A stretch of 64,000 nucleotides of DNA from Polaribacter marinaquae (lineage in GTDB: Bacteria > Bacteroidota > Bacteroidia > Flavobacteriales > Flavobacteriaceae): positions 771,501-835,500 of the forward strand of contig NZ_CP150496.1 in the NCBI RefSeq assembly GCF_038019025.1. The letters are read 5' to 3'. Positions 7,986 to 32,314 of this stretch are shown in pieces. Below the pieces are notes generated by a model. The model was not told the DNA's origin. It saw only the letters and a list, made by a program, of their open reading frames with translations, and searched no databases. Every line of letters starts with the position of its first letter. Position 1 is the stretch's first letter. The position numbers were made by a program, and so were the translations under genes.

Positions 7986-8831
7986 ATGTTAAGATTATTA
8001 ACTATAGAGTTTCATAAATTAAAACATAATAAAGCTAGTAAAGTACTTTCACTTATCTATTTTGGGCTTTTAACTTGTATTGCATTAATTGCTGCAATTA
8101 AGTTTGATATTGGCCCGATAAAATTTCATTTGGCAGAAATAGGAATTTTTAATTTCCCATACATTTGGCATTTTAACACCTACATTGCTGCAATTTTAAA
8201 GTTCTTTTTACTCTTAGTTATTGTATCTATGATGGCAAATGAGTACAGTTACAAAACTTTAAAACAAAACTTAATTGATGGTTTAAGTAAAAAAGAATTT
8301 ATACTATCTAAATTTTATACAGTAATTGTTTTTGCATTTGTTTCAACAGTATTCGTATTCTTTGTCTCTTTAGTATTAGGTTTAATTTATTCTGATTATA
8401 ATGAATTGGCAATTATAACTTCTGATTTACAATATTTATTAGCCTTTTTTATCAAGTTAGTAGCCTTCTTTTCTATGGGTTTATTCTTCGGAATTTTAGT
8501 AAAAAGATCTGCATTTGCAGTTGGAGCAATGGTTGTTTGGTTATTTGTAGAAAGCATGTTTAAAGGATATTTATTCTGGACTTTTAAAGATTCTGAAAAC
8601 ACAAGCGAAAAAGTAGATAGCGTAATGCAGTTTTTACCTTTCGAATCTATGGCAAATTTAATAAAAGAACCTTTTACTAGATTAGGTGCTGTTAGGTCTG
8701 TAGCAAACCAAATAGGAGAAACCTTTACAAAAAGTTACACAGTTGATTTTTCTGCAGTTGTAATTGCTTCTGTATGGACTTTTATTTTTATTTATTTATC
8801 TTTTACATTGTTAAAAAAGAGAGATTTGTAG
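7986..8831 (+). CDS. ABC-2 type transporter permease
   Basis: 281 residues with six predicted membrane segments (about 20-38, 60-80, 110-132, 148-170, 178-195, 255-275) and the conserved MANEYSYKTLKQNLIDG segment of the ABC-2/NatB-like permeases after the second segment. It pairs with the ATPase at 7028. Substrate unknown. Confidence 0.85.
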   Translation: MLRLLTIEFHKLKHNKASKVLSLIYFGLLTCIALIAAIKFDIGPIKFHLAEIGIFNFPYIWHFNTYIAAILKFFLLLVIVSMMANEYSYKTLKQNLIDGLSKKEFILSKFYTVIVFAFVSTVFVFFVSLVLGLIYSDYNELAIITSDLQYLLAFFIKLVAFFSMGLFFGILVKRSAFAVGAMVVWLFVESMFKGYLFWTFKDSENTSEKVDSVMQFLPFESMANLIKEPFTRLGAVRSVANQIGETFTKSYTVDFSAVVIASVWTFIFIYLSFTLLKKRDL

Positions 8832-8842
8832 TACATTTTAAA

Positions 8843-8850
8843 TATATTTG
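8843..8850 (+). promoter_or_regulatory. TAnnTTTG -7 promoter element for the T9SS cargo gene
   Basis: TATATTTG lies 25 bases before the ATG at 8875. A TTG 14 bases upstream is slightly closer than the usual -33 spacing. This supports 8875, not 8909, as the original gene start. Confidence 0.4.
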
Positions 8851-8874
8851 ATGAATTCATAGTAATTACATCAA

Positions 8875-11776
8875 ATGAGGAATTTATTTACATTTTTTAT
8901 ATTAATCTTTGCTCTTAACTTTTACGCGCAAAAAGAAGCAAATTTTTGGTATTTTGGAGAAAATGCAGGTTTTAGATTTTAGTAGCGGAGAACCAAAAGC
9001 TCTCAACAATGGTAAATTAAGTACAGATGAAGGATGTTCATCAATTTCTAATTCAGACGGTGATTTATTATTTTATTCAGACGGAATAACTCTTTACAAC
9101 TCGAAACATGAAATAATGACTTTTTCTGATGGCAGACTAGCTACTTCTTTAGAAGGAAATCCTTCTAGTACGCAATCTGCTTTATTTGTGCCAAACCCAA
9201 CGAATAAAAACATTTATTATCTTTTTACAGTTGGTACTAATTTTGTTGGTAACACATCATATCCTGTTAATCCTGGTTTTAACTTTTACACCATAGACTT
9301 ATCTTTAAACGGTGGTTTAGGTGAAGTTACATCTGGCCCCGTTAGTTTAGATACAAACCCATATACTGGTGAAGACTTATCTTATTCTTGGTCAGAAAAA
9401 GTTACTGCAGTTCAAGGAAGCTGCGGTTCTATCTGGGCTTTATCAGTAGTAGAAAATCATTTTTTTGCCTATGAAATTACCAGTTCAGGTGTCAATATTA
9501 ATAATCCTGTAATTAGTCGCGTTTTTTACAACTTAACTGATAAAAGAGGTTACTTAAAAGTATCTCCAGATGGCTCTAAAATTGCAATGGCAGATTACAA
9601 TGAAGGATTTGGTTCATTTGGAGGTGGTAGCTTAGTACTTTTAGATTTTGATATTAATACAGGGGTAGTAAGCAGAAATATAAAAAGACTAACAGAACCA
9701 AATACTGAAGGAGCTCCTTATGGAGTAGAATTCTCTAAACAATCTAATAAGTTATATGTATCTACATTTAATTCACAAAACAACATTTACCAATTTGATT
9801 TGACAAAAACAGATGTAGCTGATACTAAGGTGTTAATTAGCTCTCAAACGGGTTATAGAAGTGGTTTACAATTAGGTCCTAACGGAAAAATTTATAATTC
9901 AATACCGGGAACCCCTTTTCTTGGTGTTATCGAAAATCCAGATGCCGATGCTAGTGATGTTATTTATATTAATGATGCTGTCGACCTAGGCACAGGTAGA
10001 ACTACCCAAGGCTTACCTCCTTTTATACAATCTTTTTTTAAACCTGTTGATATTGTAGATGTAAACGACCCTACTATTGTTTTAAGCAATAGTAAACAGA
10101 ATGTTTGTGCTGATCAAAGTTTAAAATTAGAGCCAGAACTAGAAGAAGTTTCTTTAGGCACATACAAGTATCTTTGGACAAAAGAAGGAGATCCTTCAAT
10201 TATAATAACCACTAGAGGCTTAGAAATTACAAATACTAATTTAGGCTCTGGAAAATATAATTTAGAAATTAAATCTACAGATAGTTGTGGTAATGACAAA
10301 ACATACAATAGTTCTGTAGAAGTAGAATTTCAATCGATTCCTACAATAAACAACTCAATAATTTACACTCAATGTGATTATGACAATAATTCTTTAGACG
10401 GAAAAACATTTTTCAATTTAGAAACAAAAGAAATCGAATTATCAAATAACGCTACTGATGTATCTGTTGAGTTTTTTGAATTAGATGATACACCGATAAT
10501 TAATAAAGTTGGCTACGTTAATAAAGAAGCTGCAATAACAAGCTCACATGTTTTAAAAGTAAAAGTTACTAATAATACAACTGGTTGTTCTGTATTTGGT
10601 CAAATAGAATTAAAAGTTACACCAACAACTTCTGGCTTTAATCAACTTAAAAACATTTACAAAGCAGAAATAAACGCATCTACAGATTTAACAAATTATA
10701 GTGAAGGGTCTAACGATGCCGCTTTTAATTTAGATGAGAAAATCGATAAGGTAATTTCTAATTCATCTGGTGTTTTTAATAGAAGTGAATATCAATTTAA
10801 ATACTATTTAACTTCAGAAGATGCAGCAAAAGAAACTAACGAAATAACGGCACCTTACACTGCAAACAGATACGGAAATAACACAAAAATTTATTTAAGA
10901 ATTTCTAAAGGAAATTCATGTGAAGGTATTGCAGAATTTAGCTTGTTTGTTAACAAGCTTCCAGAACCGTTAAATGTAATTAACCCTAATATTATATGTT
11001 TAAATTTCCCAGACAATTCTCCTGTTTTAGAAACTAAAAGTATTGTTTCAGAAACTGGTAACTCTATAGATAGTTACAAATGGTATTTAAACTCTGTAGA
11101 AATTCCTAATGAAACAAATTCGTCTTTAACCATTAATAAAGGTGGCGATTACAAAGTAATAATTAATAGGTTTTATGAAAACGAACCAGGAAATGAAGAT
11201 AATATAGAAACTACTGGTTATAAAACATTTTCTGTTCTAGAATCTAGCATCGCAGAAAACATTTCAATAAAATACATTGATAATCAAGATGAAGGATTTA
11301 ACAATAGTATTACTATAAATGTAGAGGGTTTAGGTGATTATGAATACGCCTTAAATAACAACTCTTTAACCGAATTTAAAAAAGGTGATACTAATTTATC
11401 GTATACTTTTACCAATGTACCAACCGGTCTTAATAAAATTTACATTAGAGATAGAAATGAATGCGGAATTGTAAATACAAATGAAATTTCATTTATTTAT
11501 TTTCAGAGACATTTTACACCAAATGGAGATGGTGTTAATGATACTTGGAACATTTCTGGAATCGATAATAATTTTTATACTGATGTTGATTTACAAATAT
11601 TTGATAGATTTGGTAAAGTTCTTAAAATTATAGACTTAAAAACAGAAAATGGTTGGAACGGAACTTACAATGGTAAGCTTTTACCCACAAATGATTATTG
11701 GTACAACGCCGTTCTAAAAGATGTAAACGGAAATATTAGAAAACAAACTGGTCACTTTTCGTTATTAAGAAAATAA
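8875..11776 (+). pseudogene. T9SS type B cargo protein, 5' end disrupted by a one-base frameshift
   Basis: Large secreted protein, about 965 residues if repaired. From ATG 8875 a typical signal peptide is read (MRNLFTFFILIF then YAQ), followed by KEANFWYFGENAG, and the frame then hits TAG at 8980. The homologous continuation (LDFSSGEPKAL) is in the next frame, open from 8909 to 11776. Removing one T from the run at 8970-8973 restores one frame. The body has a beta-propeller-like N-terminal half and Ig/PKD-like C-terminal modules. It ends in the ~85-residue gliding-motility/T9SS type B sorting domain (FTPNGDGVNDTWNI ... YWYNAVLKD). Without repair no signal peptide is made, so no export. It may be a true mutation, a slippery tract or an assembly error. 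Confidence 0.85.
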
Positions 11777-28238: not shown

Positions 28239-29765
28239 TTAATTTAAAGCTTTATAAACTTGCTCTTTAAGCTGTTTTGCAGTATAAGGCTTACCAATTA
28301 CATCTTTAAAACCAATACTTTTATATCGTAAAACATCTTCTTCTGTAGTGTTTGCTGTTAATGCTAAAAAAGGAATTTTAGAGTTATCACTTGCAAATTC
28401 ATTAGACATTTGAACTAACTGTTCGCCTGTAATATTTGGCATGTGTATATCTAAAAGAACGATATCAAAAATGTTATTTTTTAACAATTGTAAAGCTTCA
28501 AAACCATCTTTTACTAAAGTTAAAACTACATTTTCAGATTTTAAAATATGAGAAACAATTGATTGATTTAACACATCATCATCTGCTACTAATATTCTTT
28601 TGCCTACTAAATTTATGTCGGTAAATTTCTCTGGATTCTGATTCTGAGATTGCTGATTTTGCTTCGGTTTTGAAAAAGGAATTTTTACTTTAAACAAAGT
28701 ACCAGAATTCAGTTTACTTTTCACAGAGATTTCTCCGTTCATTGCCAAAAGCAACTTCTTAACAATAGACAAACCAAGACCAGCGCCACCGTACACTCGA
28801 TTATCATCTTTATTATTTTGCTGATATTCATTAAAAATTTTAGAAGCTTGTTCAGCAGTCATTCCTCTACCAGAATCTTCAATTAAAAAGTTTAAAAGAA
28901 CCTGATTTTCTTCTTCTGAATCTATATTTAACTTTAAAGATATAACTCCTTTTTCAGTAAATTTTAAAGCGTTTGATAATAAATTAGATAAGATTTGATT
29001 TACTCGAACATCGTCACCAATTAAAACTTTAGGTATATTTTCATCAACCTCTAAAGCTAAAGTAATTTTGTTGTTTTTATTCTGGAATCTATAATTATCA
29101 ATGGCATTTTTAGCAACTTCATGAACATTTAATTCGGAATTTACCAAATCTAATTTTCCGGCTTCTATTCTAGATAAATCTAAAATATCGTTTACAATTA
29201 CTTTAAGGTTTTTACCAGATAAAGATAAAAGATTGGCATATTCTTTAACATTATCATTTATACTTTCATTAGAAATCATTTCAGAATATCCTAAAATAAC
29301 ATTTAAAGGATTTCTGATTTCATGACTCATCATTGCTAAAAATCGAGACTTTTCTTCGTTTGCTTTATCTGCAATTTTTCTTAATCGATCTAACTCAATA
29401 TTTTTTTCTGCCAGTTCTCTTTTCACAAAGAAAATATCGTTTCGATTTTGATTTAATTGATCGACGTATTTATAAACATTTGTTCTGTTATGAATTAAAA
29501 CTGTTACAACCTTGCTTGTATTAAACAACTCTAAATCAACATTAAATTCTTGATTATCTGCGTTAACAACCATGCCCTCTAACAGAAACGAAGTATTTTC
29601 TTCTAAAGCTTCTAATGTTCCTTCTAAAAAAGGACAGACATCAAAAATACTTTGATTTAAACGAAATTCTGAGATAGCAAATTTACCAGCATCGATATTT
29701 AAAATCACACCAGAAATATTGGTGGTAATTTGTATAAAAACATCTTCTATTTTTGCTGGTATCAA
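28239..29765 (-). CDS. Cytosolic hybrid histidine kinase with C-terminal receiver domain
   Basis: 508 residues, no membrane segment. A ~105-residue PAS-like sensor region is followed by a coiled coil (about 108-140), HisKA with MSHEIRNP (phospho-acceptor His148), HATPase_c (ILSNLLSNALKF, DSGRGM, GGAGLGLSIV), and a receiver (about 388-508) with DDD, phospho-acceptor Asp in VLLDIHMPN, and a late Lys in GKPY. It starts with TTG 7 bases after the stop of the Rab-like GTPase gene, last of a four-gene operon. I infer that the GTPase module feeds this kinase. No separate output protein is encoded here. Confidence 0.92.
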   Translation of the reverse strand: MIPAKIEDVFIQITTNISGVILNIDAGKFAISEFRLNQSIFDVCPFLEGTLEALEENTSFLLEGMVVNADNQEFNVDLELFNTSKVVTVLIHNRTNVYKYVDQLNQNRNDIFFVKRELAEKNIELDRLRKIADKANEEKSRFLAMMSHEIRNPLNVILGYSEMISNESINDNVKEYANLLSLSGKNLKVIVNDILDLSRIEAGKLDLVNSELNVHEVAKNAIDNYRFQNKNNKITLALEVDENIPKVLIGDDVRVNQILSNLLSNALKFTEKGVISLKLNIDSEEENQVLLNFLIEDSGRGMTAEQASKIFNEYQQNNKDDNRVYGGAGLGLSIVKKLLLAMNGEISVKSKLNSGTLFKVKIPFSKPKQNQQSQNQNPEKFTDINLVGKRILVADDDVLNQSIVSHILKSENVVLTLVKDGFEALQLLKNNIFDIVLLDIHMPNITGEQLVQMSNEFASDNSKIPFLALTANTTEEDVLRYKSIGFKDVIGKPYTAKQLKEQVYKALN

Positions 29766-29772
29766 GTGAATT

Positions 29773-30258
29773 TTATTTTAATGAATTTGCTGCTAACTTT
29801 AAAAATGCATTCTCTACGTTTTCATTTTCTTTTGCACTTGTAATTAGATCTATATCTAAAGAAACTTTATTTTTAACTGCTAACAACTCATCTTCTGTAA
29901 GTAAATCTTTTTTGTTACCCACAATGGTTATTTCTTTTAAACCAGACAATTCTTTTACGTTACCAACGTATTCATCTAATTTTAAATACGTTTCTTCTCT
30001 GCTTAAATCGAAAACATACATGGCTGCTTTTGCTCCTAAAAAATAAGCTTTGGGTATTTTTTCATCTTCACTTGTACCTGCAACGTCCCAAATTAAAAGT
30101 TTAATTTCTTGATTTTCGTAGGATACAATTTTAGAACTAACCCTAACACCAATAGTGCTTATATAGTCTTCTGAGAATTGATTTAAAACAAATCTTCTAA
30201 TTAAAGATGTTTTACCAACGCCAAAATTACCAACTAATAAAACTTTTTTAGCTATCAT
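29773..30258 (-). CDS. Rab/Ras-like small GTPase
   Basis: 161 residues, almost entirely a Ras-superfamily G domain. G1 is GNFGVGKTS, switch I is YISTIGVRVSSK (very Rab-like), G3 is WDVAGT, G4 is NKKD and G5 is TSAKE. The residue equivalent to the catalytic Gln61 is Thr (DVAGT), so intrinsic hydrolysis may be slow. No C-terminal prenylation cysteines. Bacterial relatives include MglA-type and spirochaete/cyanobacterial Rab-like proteins. It lies 5 bases after the longin-like partner gene and 7 bases before the histidine kinase, so one transcript is very likely. Confidence 0.92.
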   Translation of the reverse strand: MIAKKVLLVGNFGVGKTSLIRRFVLNQFSEDYISTIGVRVSSKIVSYENQEIKLLIWDVAGTSEDEKIPKAYFLGAKAAMYVFDLSREETYLKLDEYVGNVKELSGLKEITIVGNKKDLLTEDELLAVKNKVSLDIDLITSAKENENVENAFLKLAANSLK

Positions 30259-30263
30259 TATTA

Positions 30264-31070
30264 TTAATCTATTAAATGTCTTTCTATTAAGACATTCAGT
30301 TTAACTTCATCTGATAAATAATCGCGATCTCTTAAGATAATTTCTGCTAAATTATTTACGTTATCAGACAAGTTCTCTCTAAATTCATTGTTAATTACTC
30401 CTGAAGTTGCAATTGCAATGTATATCGTTTTGAAGTTTTTTATGGTAAGCTGAAAGTTATCGAATCGAATATCTTCTAAATTTTGATCTTCTTTAGAAAA
30501 CGCTTCTTCTGCAAATGATTTAATGGCTGTTAACATACCAGAAACCATATCTTTATCTGCAATATTACCTCTTGTAAAATTTCCCGATAATAAACCAGAG
30601 TCTTTTTCTATGATAAAAACCTCTTCTATTATTGGCTCAAAAACTTCTTGTAGTACATCTTCTGCATCACTCTTTTTTCCTTTAAAAAACCTTTTTAAGA
30701 TTTCAGTAATCGAGAATTTTTCTGTGATGGTTTTATTAATACTGTCAGACAACTTTGTTATTTCACTAACAATTGCTTTCTTAATAAGTTTACCCATTAT
30801 TGGGTATAAAGCTTCTACAACCTCATCTTGCGAGTCTCTAATTTGTACTTTTATTGTTTCTGTAATCGTGCTTCCAAAATAAGCTGGAAAATTTTTACGA
30901 AGATCTTCAATTTTTTCATCTACTACAGGCGTAACCTTCTCAGATAATCTTTCTTTTTCTAAAATTCTATTACTTAAATCAGAAAACTTATCTCTATCTT
31001 CTTCTAATAAAAGTTCTCTGAGCAACTCAAAACGATTGTCTTTTTTGTTATCTACAGTTTCCTTTTTCAT
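30264..31070 (-). CDS. GTPase-associated protein with C-terminal roadblock/longin-like region
   Basis: 268 residues, soluble. The N-terminal ~140 residues (FELLRELLLEEDRDKF, then a helical stretch with ALYPIMGKLIKKAI) resemble the cytosolic N-terminal part of certain large OmpA-family and GTPase-linked proteins. From about 160 the pattern EVFIIEKDSGLL, DMVSGMLTAIKSFAEEAF, NFKTIYIAIATSGV looks like a roadblock/longin fold, the fold of MglB-type GTPase regulators. It starts at the base after the upstream stop. I infer it is the effector or GAP of the Rab-like GTPase. Assignment is from remembered family patterns. Confidence 0.7.
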   Translation of the reverse strand: MKKETVDNKKDNRFELLRELLLEEDRDKFSDLSNRILEKERLSEKVTPVVDEKIEDLRKNFPAYFGSTITETIKVQIRDSQDEVVEALYPIMGKLIKKAIVSEITKLSDSINKTITEKFSITEILKRFFKGKKSDAEDVLQEVFEPIIEEVFIIEKDSGLLSGNFTRGNIADKDMVSGMLTAIKSFAEEAFSKEDQNLEDIRFDNFQLTIKNFKTIYIAIATSGVINNEFRENLSDNVNNLAEIILRDRDYLSDEVKLNVLIERHLID

Positions 31071-31424
31071 CTATTCTTGCAACATCAATGCAATTTTTTC
31101 TAAAGCTTTTCCTAATTTTTTTCTATCTGCTTTTTCATCATCTAAATCTGCCAATTTCTTATCTAAATCTTCGTTTAAATCTTGAAATTTATGATCCATT
31201 AGACTTTCTAAATCTGCTAATTTATTTTCTAAATTTGCTACAGATTCTCCTAAGTTTTTTTGAGTTTCGTCTCGTAATGCTTTAATTCTGTTAAAAACAT
31301 CTTCAAACTCAGAATTGTATTGCTGAATATTTTCACCAAAAATTAAATCTCTTACTGCTGCAATTCTACTATCTTCTACTTGATTAGCTTTGGTTGCTTT
31401 GCTATTCTCTGACTTGTTTTCCAT
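31071..31424 (-). CDS. Small coiled-coil protein of the GTPase operon
   Basis: 117 residues, soluble. The segment VRDLIFGENIQQYNSEF (about 24-40) echoes the N-terminal LRELLLEEDRDKFSD of the next protein, hinting at a shared short domain. The rest (about 45-117) is a continuous acidic/basic coiled coil with leucine heptads. It is the first gene of the four-gene operon; its stop codon abuts the next ATG. Probably a scaffold; function unknown. Confidence 0.65.
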   Translation of the reverse strand: MENKSENSKATKANQVEDSRIAAVRDLIFGENIQQYNSEFEDVFNRIKALRDETQKNLGESVANLENKLADLESLMDHKFQDLNEDLDKKLADLDDEKADRKKLGKALEKIALMLQE

Positions 31425-31531: not shown

Positions 31532-32314
31532 CTAACTTGTTATTTTTAAACCATCATAAGCCAAATAAACATTTGGCGGTAAGTTTTTAGAGACTTCTTT
31601 ATGAAAACCTAATTTGTGACTAATATGCGTAAAATAAGTTTTTTTAGGCTTAATTTTTGCCACAAAATCTAAGGCTTCTTCTAAGTTAAAATGTGTAGGA
31701 TGCGCCTCTAATCGTAAAGCATTTACTATTAAAACATCTAAGTTTTTTAGCTTATCAATTTCTGATGTTGCAATAGTTTTTACATCTGTTAAATAAGCAA
31801 TATTTTCTATTTTGTAACCTAAAATAGGCAAATTACCATGCAAAACCTGTATTGGTGTTACATTTAAATTACCTAATTTAAAACTTTGATTATCAACAAT
31901 AGTTGGTTGTACACTTGGTGCACCAGGATATCTATTTTCTTTAGAAAATATATACTGAAAACGTTGTTCTAAACTTTCTAACGTTCTCTTATTTAAATAA
32001 ATAGGCATCTCTCCTATTTTATAACAATAAGGTCTTAAATCATCTAAACCTGCTGTATGATCTGCATGTTCGTGGGTAAATAAAACGCCTTCTACCAATT
32101 GCACATTCTCTCTAAGCATTTGTTGTCTAAAATCTGGACCACAATCGATAACATAAGACGCATCATCCGAAGAAATTAACACAGAAGATCGTAAGCGCTT
32201 ATCTTTAAAATCTTTAGACAAACAAACAGGATCGTTACTTGCTATCATTGGTATACCTTGTGATGTACCAGTACCTAAAAAAGTAATATTTAACAGTTTT
32301 TTATCAGTTTTCAT
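31532..32314 (-). CDS. PhnP-like MBL-fold metal-dependent hydrolase
   Basis: 260 residues. Metallo-beta-lactamase motifs: GTGTSQGIPMI opening, FTHEHADHTAGLDDLRP (HxHxDH), and late His in THISHKLG. The opening and the DDLRP sequence match the PhnP/LipB-like phosphodiesterase group. The natural substrate (cyclic nucleotide or ribosyl phosphate) is unknown. A TATTTTTG element (minus strand, 32327-32320) lies only 5 bases before the ATG, so any transcript from it would be nearly leaderless. Confidence 0.88.
   Translation of the reverse strand: MKTDKKLLNITFLGTGTSQGIPMIASNDPVCLSKDFKDKRLRSSVLISSDDASYVIDCGPDFRQQMLRENVQLVEGVLFTHEHADHTAGLDDLRPYCYKIGEMPIYLNKRTLESLEQRFQYIFSKENRYPGAPSVQPTIVDNQSFKLGNLNVTPIQVLHGNLPILGYKIENIAYLTDVKTIATSEIDKLKNLDVLIVNALRLEAHPTHFNLEEALDFVAKIKPKKTYFTHISHKLGFHKEVSKNLPPNVYLAYDGLKITS

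Follow-up and report, generated by a model that had tools for sequence, protein, structure and literature searches.

A locus of Polaribacter marinaquae encodes a Rab-like small GTPase and a soluble histidine kinase in one operon. The locus lies in a 64,000-nucleotide stretch of contig NZ_CP150496.1 (positions 771,501 to 835,500), here called the window. All coordinates below are window positions, and all features lie on the minus strand.

Results

Four soluble proteins in a compact operon

ORF calls confirmed the four same-strand genes, with gaps of 0, 5 and 7 bases, that a preliminary description had reported. They encode CC, a 117-aa coiled-coil protein (31071..31424); DUF, a 268-aa protein with N-terminal helices and a predicted C-terminal longin-fold domain (30264..31070); a 161-aa Rab-like small GTPase (Rup; 29773..30258); and a 508-aa cytosolic hybrid histidine kinase with a TTG start (28239..29765). 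A response regulator gene is missing from the operon. A hydropathy scan agreed with the earlier statement that all four proteins lack membrane segments (no 19-residue stretch with mean hydropathy ≥1.6). CC and DUF gave zero domain matches above the curated cut-off in a Pfam profile scan.

The preliminary description had also proposed a synteny check. The order CC-DUF-GTPase-kinase was kept in 10/10 fetched relatives, and the first three genes lay close together in 76 of the 80 named loci, a conservation greater than chance would give. These loci were the best 80 out of 545 confirmed candidates and are biased to near relatives and short forms. A locus from another family (L021) showed the identical gene order at 27-43% protein identity. 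Within the genus, the operon was present in 9 of 23 genomes with unchanged order and DUF identities of 68-79%, which rules out a recent oddity of a single strain. Gene content, order, co-conservation and domain content are established. At L019, among the 10 fetched relatives, the kinase frame is interrupted.

The GTPase resembles Rab proteins and lacks the G3 glutamine

The GTPase matched the Ras family (PF00071, E 1.4e-33), its top PDB sequence matches were Rab proteins (E 4.5e-25), and the G1, G2, G4 and G5 motifs were found by eye in the alignment. These results bear out the reading of a eukaryote-like Ras-superfamily GTPase. The G3 motif is WDVAGT, in which Thr62 (codon 30073..30075) stands where a catalytic glutamine is usual. 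That glutamine is present in a minority of relatives (4 of 85 GTPase frames, and 3 of 16 in a second set). Tandem GTPases occur in the operons of some relatives.

A shared motif and a predicted longin domain in the first two proteins

A short N-terminal motif had been noticed in both CC and DUF, and it was confirmed at profile level by hhalign (E 4.4e-5, probability 69%, 63 columns). It covers about residues 20-44 of CC (31293..31367) and about residues 14-36 of DUF (30963..31031). The formerly uncharacterised domain of DUF (residues 145-268; 30267..30638) most probably adopts a longin fold, as in eukaryotic Rab exchange factors; the assignment is based on an AlphaFold model of moderate confidence together with weak but specific Pfam longin matches in relatives. 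The AF2 model (mean pLDDT 64.7, pTM 0.43) shows two strands, a helix, three strands and helices, the longin bb-a-bbb-aa topology. Fold matches to the model favour longin only slightly, with roadblock entries scoring almost equally, so that the earlier guess of a roadblock/longin-like C-terminal region is supported by the model with a slight preference for longin.

The closest sequence profiles, matched weakly in relatives, were the first longin domains of FUZ/MON1/HPS1 and INTU/CCZ1/HPS4. The best E-values were 0.0012 in the full-length scan and 0.0038 in a domain scan of 43 members, where 10 and 5 members matched the two longin families and the window's own domain matched none. In the full-length scan of 73 members, longin (Fuz_longin_1, 9/73) was rarer than both DUF445 (16/73) and DUF6120 (15/73). 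Against PDB chain sequences, the DUF and longin profiles returned coiled-coil or chance-like matches only; the top one was multicystatin (E 0.002), in which no stretch passed alone. Hydropathy matches occurred in 6 of 80 short-form proteins, at the predicted longin strands, with no evident membrane helix.

HPS1-HPS4 is a Rab exchange factor. Fuzzy-Inturned and Mon1-Ccz1 are likewise Rab exchange factors (PMC6864590, PMC5216073), and in all three a longin domain is paired with a Rab GTPase, which the weak profile similarity and fold match recall. The window protein differs in its single longin domain, its helical N-terminus and its location in a bacterial operon that also encodes a kinase, and its exchange role is putative.

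An invariant glutamine follows the PAS-fold domain of the kinase

Pfam profiles identified HisKA (29157..29351), HATPase_c (28671..29018) and Response_reg (receiver domain, 28257..28595) in the kinase. The model of residues 1-142 had a mean pLDDT of 90.4 and Foldseek returned PAS folds, so a predicted N-terminal PAS-fold domain (residues 1-94; 29484..29765) is well supported. In the alignment, the helix joining this domain to the kinase core carries the motif Q106-N-R-N109 (29439..29450). Both Q106 and N109 were invariant in 48/48 aligned kinases, picked from 70 (69 from loci plus that of the window), and 46 of the 48 had a receiver domain. Free-standing PAS-like genes without a kinase adjoin the GTPases in the operons of some relatives.

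Long-form relatives carry a membrane-like segment and an OmpA domain

In distant, long-form relatives of DUF, one membrane-like segment followed the domain in 14/14, and an OmpA domain was found in 5/5 of those scanned, that of L146 scoring below the curated cut-off. Both the membrane helix and the OmpA tail are missing from the 268-aa protein of the window. A separate peptidoglycan-binding protein gene precedes the operon in some relatives. The GTPase was found within the stretch at 11 of 14 long-form loci, 4 of these having it on the opposite strand, and was not found in 3. At L134 and L140 the gene after the GTPase encodes a sigma-54 activator, an output without a kinase. A profile of the kinase N-terminus matched only the output of L146 (E 2.8e-4) among five long-form outputs; L134, L137, L140 and L147 gave no match at E≤10. 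With only 1/5 matched, the idea that one PAS unit heads every kind of output, as a fixed docking unit, was not borne out.

HPt and LytTR genes as candidate relay partners

A LytTR regulator gene adjoins the kinase in some relatives, and the operon-linked HPt and LytTR genes there suggest relay partners; by extension, such proteins may also serve the window kinase. The window genome contains a second HPt-like gene. Inside the genus, co-occurrence of the HPt-LytTR locus with the operon amounts to a single event on the tree, so that an independent-pairs test, having only 1 independent pair, was powerless. A naive Fisher test (10/0 vs 4/7) was discarded since it ignored kinship and mixed HPt families. 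In operon-less genomes, the HPt-LytTR pair stands beside another kinase in 4 and without a kinase in 3. The LytTR gene of L083 was left out of the count, as its position is upstream, adjacent to another gene of its own.

A probable soluble variant of the Group 1 Rup system

The preliminary description knew of no described system with this combination, but it had already been reported, from genome analysis alone, as the "Group 1 Rup" system by Wuichet and Søgaard-Andersen in 2014. According to that article (PMC4316618), Bacteroidetes are among its members, and the GTPases cluster with eukaryotic Rab/Ras/Rho/Ran and miss the catalytic G3 Gln. Their neighbours are a coiled-coil protein, a protein with a conserved domain of unnamed type, often followed by a membrane helix and OmpA, and outputs whose N-terminal region has an invariant Gln. 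The window operon shares the eukaryote-like Ras-superfamily GTPase, the missing G3 Gln, the coiled-coil and DUF neighbours and the output Gln. It differs in that its DUF protein lacks the membrane helix and OmpA tail, an optional feature there. Gene order and the OmpA-tailed relatives suggest that the DUF domain corresponds to the unnamed domain, and Q106 would be the Gln of the published logo. On gene content and motifs, we regard the operon with moderate confidence, held jointly for this assignment and the mechanism below, as a soluble variant of the system. To that description, the present analysis adds the longin and PAS assignments and, from relatives, tandem GTPases, free PAS-like genes, sigma-54 outputs and the separate peptidoglycan-binding protein; some of these variants may already figure in the full data of the 2014 study.

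The suggestion that the GTPase is of MglA type and has a roadblock partner fails: the best PDB matches are Rab proteins, Robl_LC7 had no match in the four proteins nor in the genome at E≤0.001, and the Rup family is defined as uncoupled from MglB (PMC4316618). MglA-MglB, the Myxococcus polarity switch, similarly joins a small GTPase to a regulator of the roadblock/longin superfold and is tied to response regulators, but the window genome has no MglB-type match and the GTPase is nearest to Rab; membership was ruled out by the missing Robl_LC7. The actinobacterial conservon (AGPS, CvnABCD) is alike in that a histidine kinase shares an operon with a small GTPase and a regulator of roadblock/longin type. 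Its own features are an MglA-family GTPase, the MglB-type roadblock protein CvnB, CvnC, and a kinase that is usually membrane-bound and receiver-less (PMC4316618). Conservon membership was also ruled out, given the lack of Robl_LC7, the absence of a membrane-like segment from the kinase and the presence of a receiver.

Discussion

The longin/coil pair likely sets the GTPase, which would in turn gate the kinase phosphorelay; every interaction and signalling direction in this scheme is one that we infer. CC and the helical N-terminus of DUF would build a platform, on which the longin domain would bind the Rab-like GTPase and control which nucleotide it carries, acting most probably as a scaffold or exchange factor. 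The GTP-bound GTPase may then dock on the kinase, at its PAS domain and linker helix, and alter autophosphorylation. The invariant Gln106 may either aid GTP hydrolysis in trans, the idea of the 2014 authors for the output-protein Gln (PMC4316618), or shape the linker. Phosphate would pass from the kinase histidine to its own receiver, a free HPt protein and a LytTR response regulator, changing transcription. As a whole, a soluble Group 1 Rup variant in which a longin-set GTPase gates a kinase relay is the explanation we lean towards.

The 268-aa protein may instead be a GAP or mere scaffold, with exchange spontaneous or by another protein, a rival of appreciable but lesser probability. The GTPase, without its G3 glutamine, may need help with hydrolysis, and the roadblock protein MglB shows both GEF and GAP activity on MglA (PMC10933270); against this, the nearest profiles belong to partners in Rab exchange factors.

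Rather unlikely is the reverse direction, in which the kinase PAS domain senses a ligand, the phosphorelay regulates the GTPase as output, and the longin protein is its activating protein. PAS domains are the usual sensors, and since conservons encode no regulator, their GTPase was proposed as the output (PMC4316618); the window operon likewise has no response regulator gene. However, the window kinase, like most of those aligned, carries its own receiver, a LytTR regulator adjoins the kinase in some relatives, the sigma-54 activators at L134 and L140 form a kinase-less kind of output, and kinase-less PAS-like genes adjoin GTPases, as adaptors might. A mere transcription unit, with the GTPase module serving another task and the kinase as passenger, is improbable: 7/14 long-form loci have the GTPase on the other strand or not found, but the order is kept in another family and the first three genes stay together in nearly all of the best 80 of 545 loci.

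The 2014 study predicted the system in general; the soluble form and the likely regulator fold are added here. As of 2014, the Rup family was without an experimentally characterised member (PMC4316618). The phrase 'Rup GTPase' retrieved only that article among the matches listed, a weak result as nearly all other matches were drawn by another term, and literature searches found no bacterial longin. A longin partner encoded beside a Group 1 Rup GTPase would mean that bacteria have a pairing at work in the membrane traffic of eukaryotes. In general, the small GTPase genes of an Asgard archaeon do not share operons with longin genes (PMC10933270), whereas here the operon itself gives a candidate pair. 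More speculatively, and doubtful at present, the longin-gated GTPase of our preferred scheme may be a bacterial Rab-plus-longin exchange module, of MON1/FUZ/CCZ1 type, wired into a His-Asp relay, once reading the envelope through OmpA and later freed in Bacteroidia. If so, the operon pair would be a surviving relative of the ancestral pair that gave rise to Rab regulation in eukaryotes. With its four proteins, the soluble form is small enough to be reconstituted in full.

The TTG start of the window kinase recurs among relatives. At L037-L061, the downstream ORF present in 24 loci started with TTG in 18, ATG in 4 and GTG in 2; for the whole set of 75 loci having such an ORF, the start was ATG in 50, TTG in 23 and GTG in 2.

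A soluble variant of the Group 1 Rup system

ORF calls placed four genes on the minus strand of the window, encoding a 117-aa coiled-coil protein (CC, 31071-31424), a 268-aa protein with a predicted longin domain (DUF, 30264-31070), a 161-aa Rab-like GTPase (29773-30258) and a 508-aa hybrid histidine kinase (28239-29765). The gaps of 0, 5 and 7 bases and the absence of membrane-like segments from all four proteins agreed with the preliminary description. Pfam returned Ras for the GTPase and HisKA, HATPase_c and Response_reg for the kinase; no family scored above its cut-off in DUF. A genome search gave a single match each for the GTPase and DUF, and DUF was 99% identical to its Polaribacter sp. 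BM10 counterpart. A metallo-beta-lactamase-fold hydrolase gene (31532-32314) lies 107 bases upstream, as in most Polaribacter loci. Its position there looks incidental, because the upstream neighbour in many other Flavobacteriaceae loci resembles fructose-bisphosphatase (one scanned, L116).

The preliminary description did not recognise the combination as a known system; its outline already appears in Wuichet and Søgaard-Andersen (2014; PMC4316618). In that paper, Group 1 Rup GTPases, with Bacteroidetes among the members, have eukaryote-like G motifs lacking the G3 glutamine. Their neighbours are a coiled-coil protein and a second protein carrying a conserved domain of unknown function, after which a membrane helix and OmpA often come. 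The output protein is typically a c-di-GMP enzyme or a histidine kinase, and its N-terminal region carries an invariant glutamine. The authors proposed, without experiments, a conservon-analogous system. The window operon fits this description: its GTPase likewise has Thr62 in G3 instead of glutamine, and its kinase type has an invariant Gln106 (48/48 kinases). It is a soluble variant of a system already outlined, and the assignment of a longin fold to DUF and a PAS fold to the kinase turns the 2014 prediction into a testable one.

Conservation and distribution of the operon

The operon is real and, where present, well conserved. DUF and CC occurred in an identical set of 11 of 39 genomes (own included), and the GTPase in the same 11 plus one partial match (E 8.8e-4). 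The gene order proposed for checking in relatives, CC-DUF-GTPase-kinase on one strand, was kept in ten fetched neighbourhoods, one of them from another family at 27-43% identity; stops interrupt the kinase frame in L019, the locus of genome G016. A scan of species genomes yielded 545 confirmed loci; among the best 80 of these, CC-DUF-GTPase spacing was tight in 76, the exceptions being L065 (CC 2 kb off), L069 and L073 (CC not found) and L115 (contig end). In 71 of these 80 the GTPase was followed by a same-strand ORF of at least 300 aa; the other nine were six two-GTPase loci, L114, where the PAS-like part and kinase are separate frames, and the contig ends L038 and L115. DUF had the short form in all of the best 80 (240-294 aa; L115 truncated by the contig end). 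Distribution was patchy: 15/396 genomes of the class by single-sequence query and 15/392 of the phylum by longin-domain profile, own counted in both. In L066, whose record carries the label of a Gammaproteobacteria MAG, the operon is Bacteroidota-like (DUF 39% identical); the contig is perhaps misbinned.

A PAS-like kinase N-terminus

Sixty-nine downstream ORFs were judged complete enough for listing, and 47 of them were aligned with the window's kinase. All 48 had HisKA and HATPase_c, 46 a receiver and six an HPt match (E<=0.001); Asn109 was as invariant as Gln106 (48/48). The predicted model of residues 1-142 (mean pLDDT 90.4) matched PAS domains (best E 4.1e-4) and would place Q106 in the helix that links PAS domain and kinase core.

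Free-standing genes resembling this N-terminus lie between DUF and the GTPase in L071, L088 and L116, and between two GTPases in L099, which fits an adaptor role. Two Rup GTPase frames were seen in 6 of the best 80 of 545 loci (L074, L079, L081, L089, L094 and L099, about 8800-11030), the first being a 109-aa frame in L079. In the five others, the first GTPase is followed by such a free-standing gene together with a short coil; the PAS-like product encoded between the two GTPases is about 200 aa long, a hint of a two-GTPase circuit.

We infer all interactions among the operon proteins. CC and DUF have an N-terminal motif in common and would probably form a platform on which the GTPase is loaded; in its loaded state the GTPase would then act on the kinase's PAS-linker unit. 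Signalling may instead run in the reverse direction, from kinase to GTPase.

Candidate relay partners

A LytTR regulator gene directly follows the kinase in five loci and lies downstream in three more. In L060 and L061, HPt (36-37% identical) and LytTR (59-60%) genes resembling those of the window genome lie ~2.5 kb past the kinase, separated from it by a receiver gene and by another kinase rich in PAS domains. The window genome carries its HPt and LytTR genes together at 1.718-1.719 Mb (L150:4174-5666, 1.718-1.720 Mb); accC and an AsnC-type gene precede them, and no kinase accompanies them. The two are candidate relay partners of the operon kinase. The genome has another HPt-like gene at 0.418 Mb.

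The order accC-AsnC-HPt-LytTR, in some cases including a small receiver gene, was found in 10/10 operon-bearing Polaribacter genomes, and the pair at this site in 0/14 operon-less ones, where G007 hits a contig edge and G019 and G023 keep HPt alone. Since operon-bearing genomes cluster together in the accC tree (support 62/94), this co-occurrence counts as one event and is weak evidence. Elsewhere, HPt-LytTR pairs stood beside another kinase in four operon-less genomes and without a recognised kinase in three. Among the ten, G016 alone has stops in the frame of the operon kinase (L019:5649-7187), and it alone has an interrupted LytTR frame (L159); its CC, DUF, GTPase and HPt frames were open, a small hint at cooperation between the kinase and the LytTR regulator.

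A possible link to the cell envelope

In all 14 long-form loci examined, from distant relatives, the longin domain was followed by one membrane-like segment, and all five proteins scanned matched OmpA, one below cut-off. CC was present in 13 of these stretches (all except L141) and the GTPase in 11, adjacent on the same strand in seven (L134, L135, L137, L139, L140, L146, L147) and on the opposite strand in four (L141, L142, L144, L145); it was not found in L136, L138 or L143 among the 14 searched. The outputs scanned were kinases (L137, L146, L147) and sigma-54 activators (L134, L140). The activators, with PAS and a Fis-type HTH, come next after the GTPase (L134:1902-3656, L140:1395-3179) and are an output kind not named for Group 1 Rup in the available part of the 2014 text (PMC4316618). 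The kinase-N-terminus profile matched the output of L146 (E 2.8e-4) and gave no match at E<=10 in L134, L137, L140 or L147. Because only one of five outputs matched, the shared N-terminal region that PMC4316618 reports for different kinds of output could not be confirmed here.

Neither an OmpA-tailed form nor an adjoining peptidoglycan-binding gene was seen at the window's operon. In 13 of the best 80 of 545 loci, the gene directly before CC encodes a roughly 210-aa protein whose N-terminus holds a membrane-like segment (e.g. L063:6989-7618); in L114 it is split into two frames. All five of these proteins scanned contained PG_binding_1; peptidoglycan contact therefore seems to be encoded by a separate gene in those loci, and the ~210-aa protein may stand in for the OmpA tail in trans.
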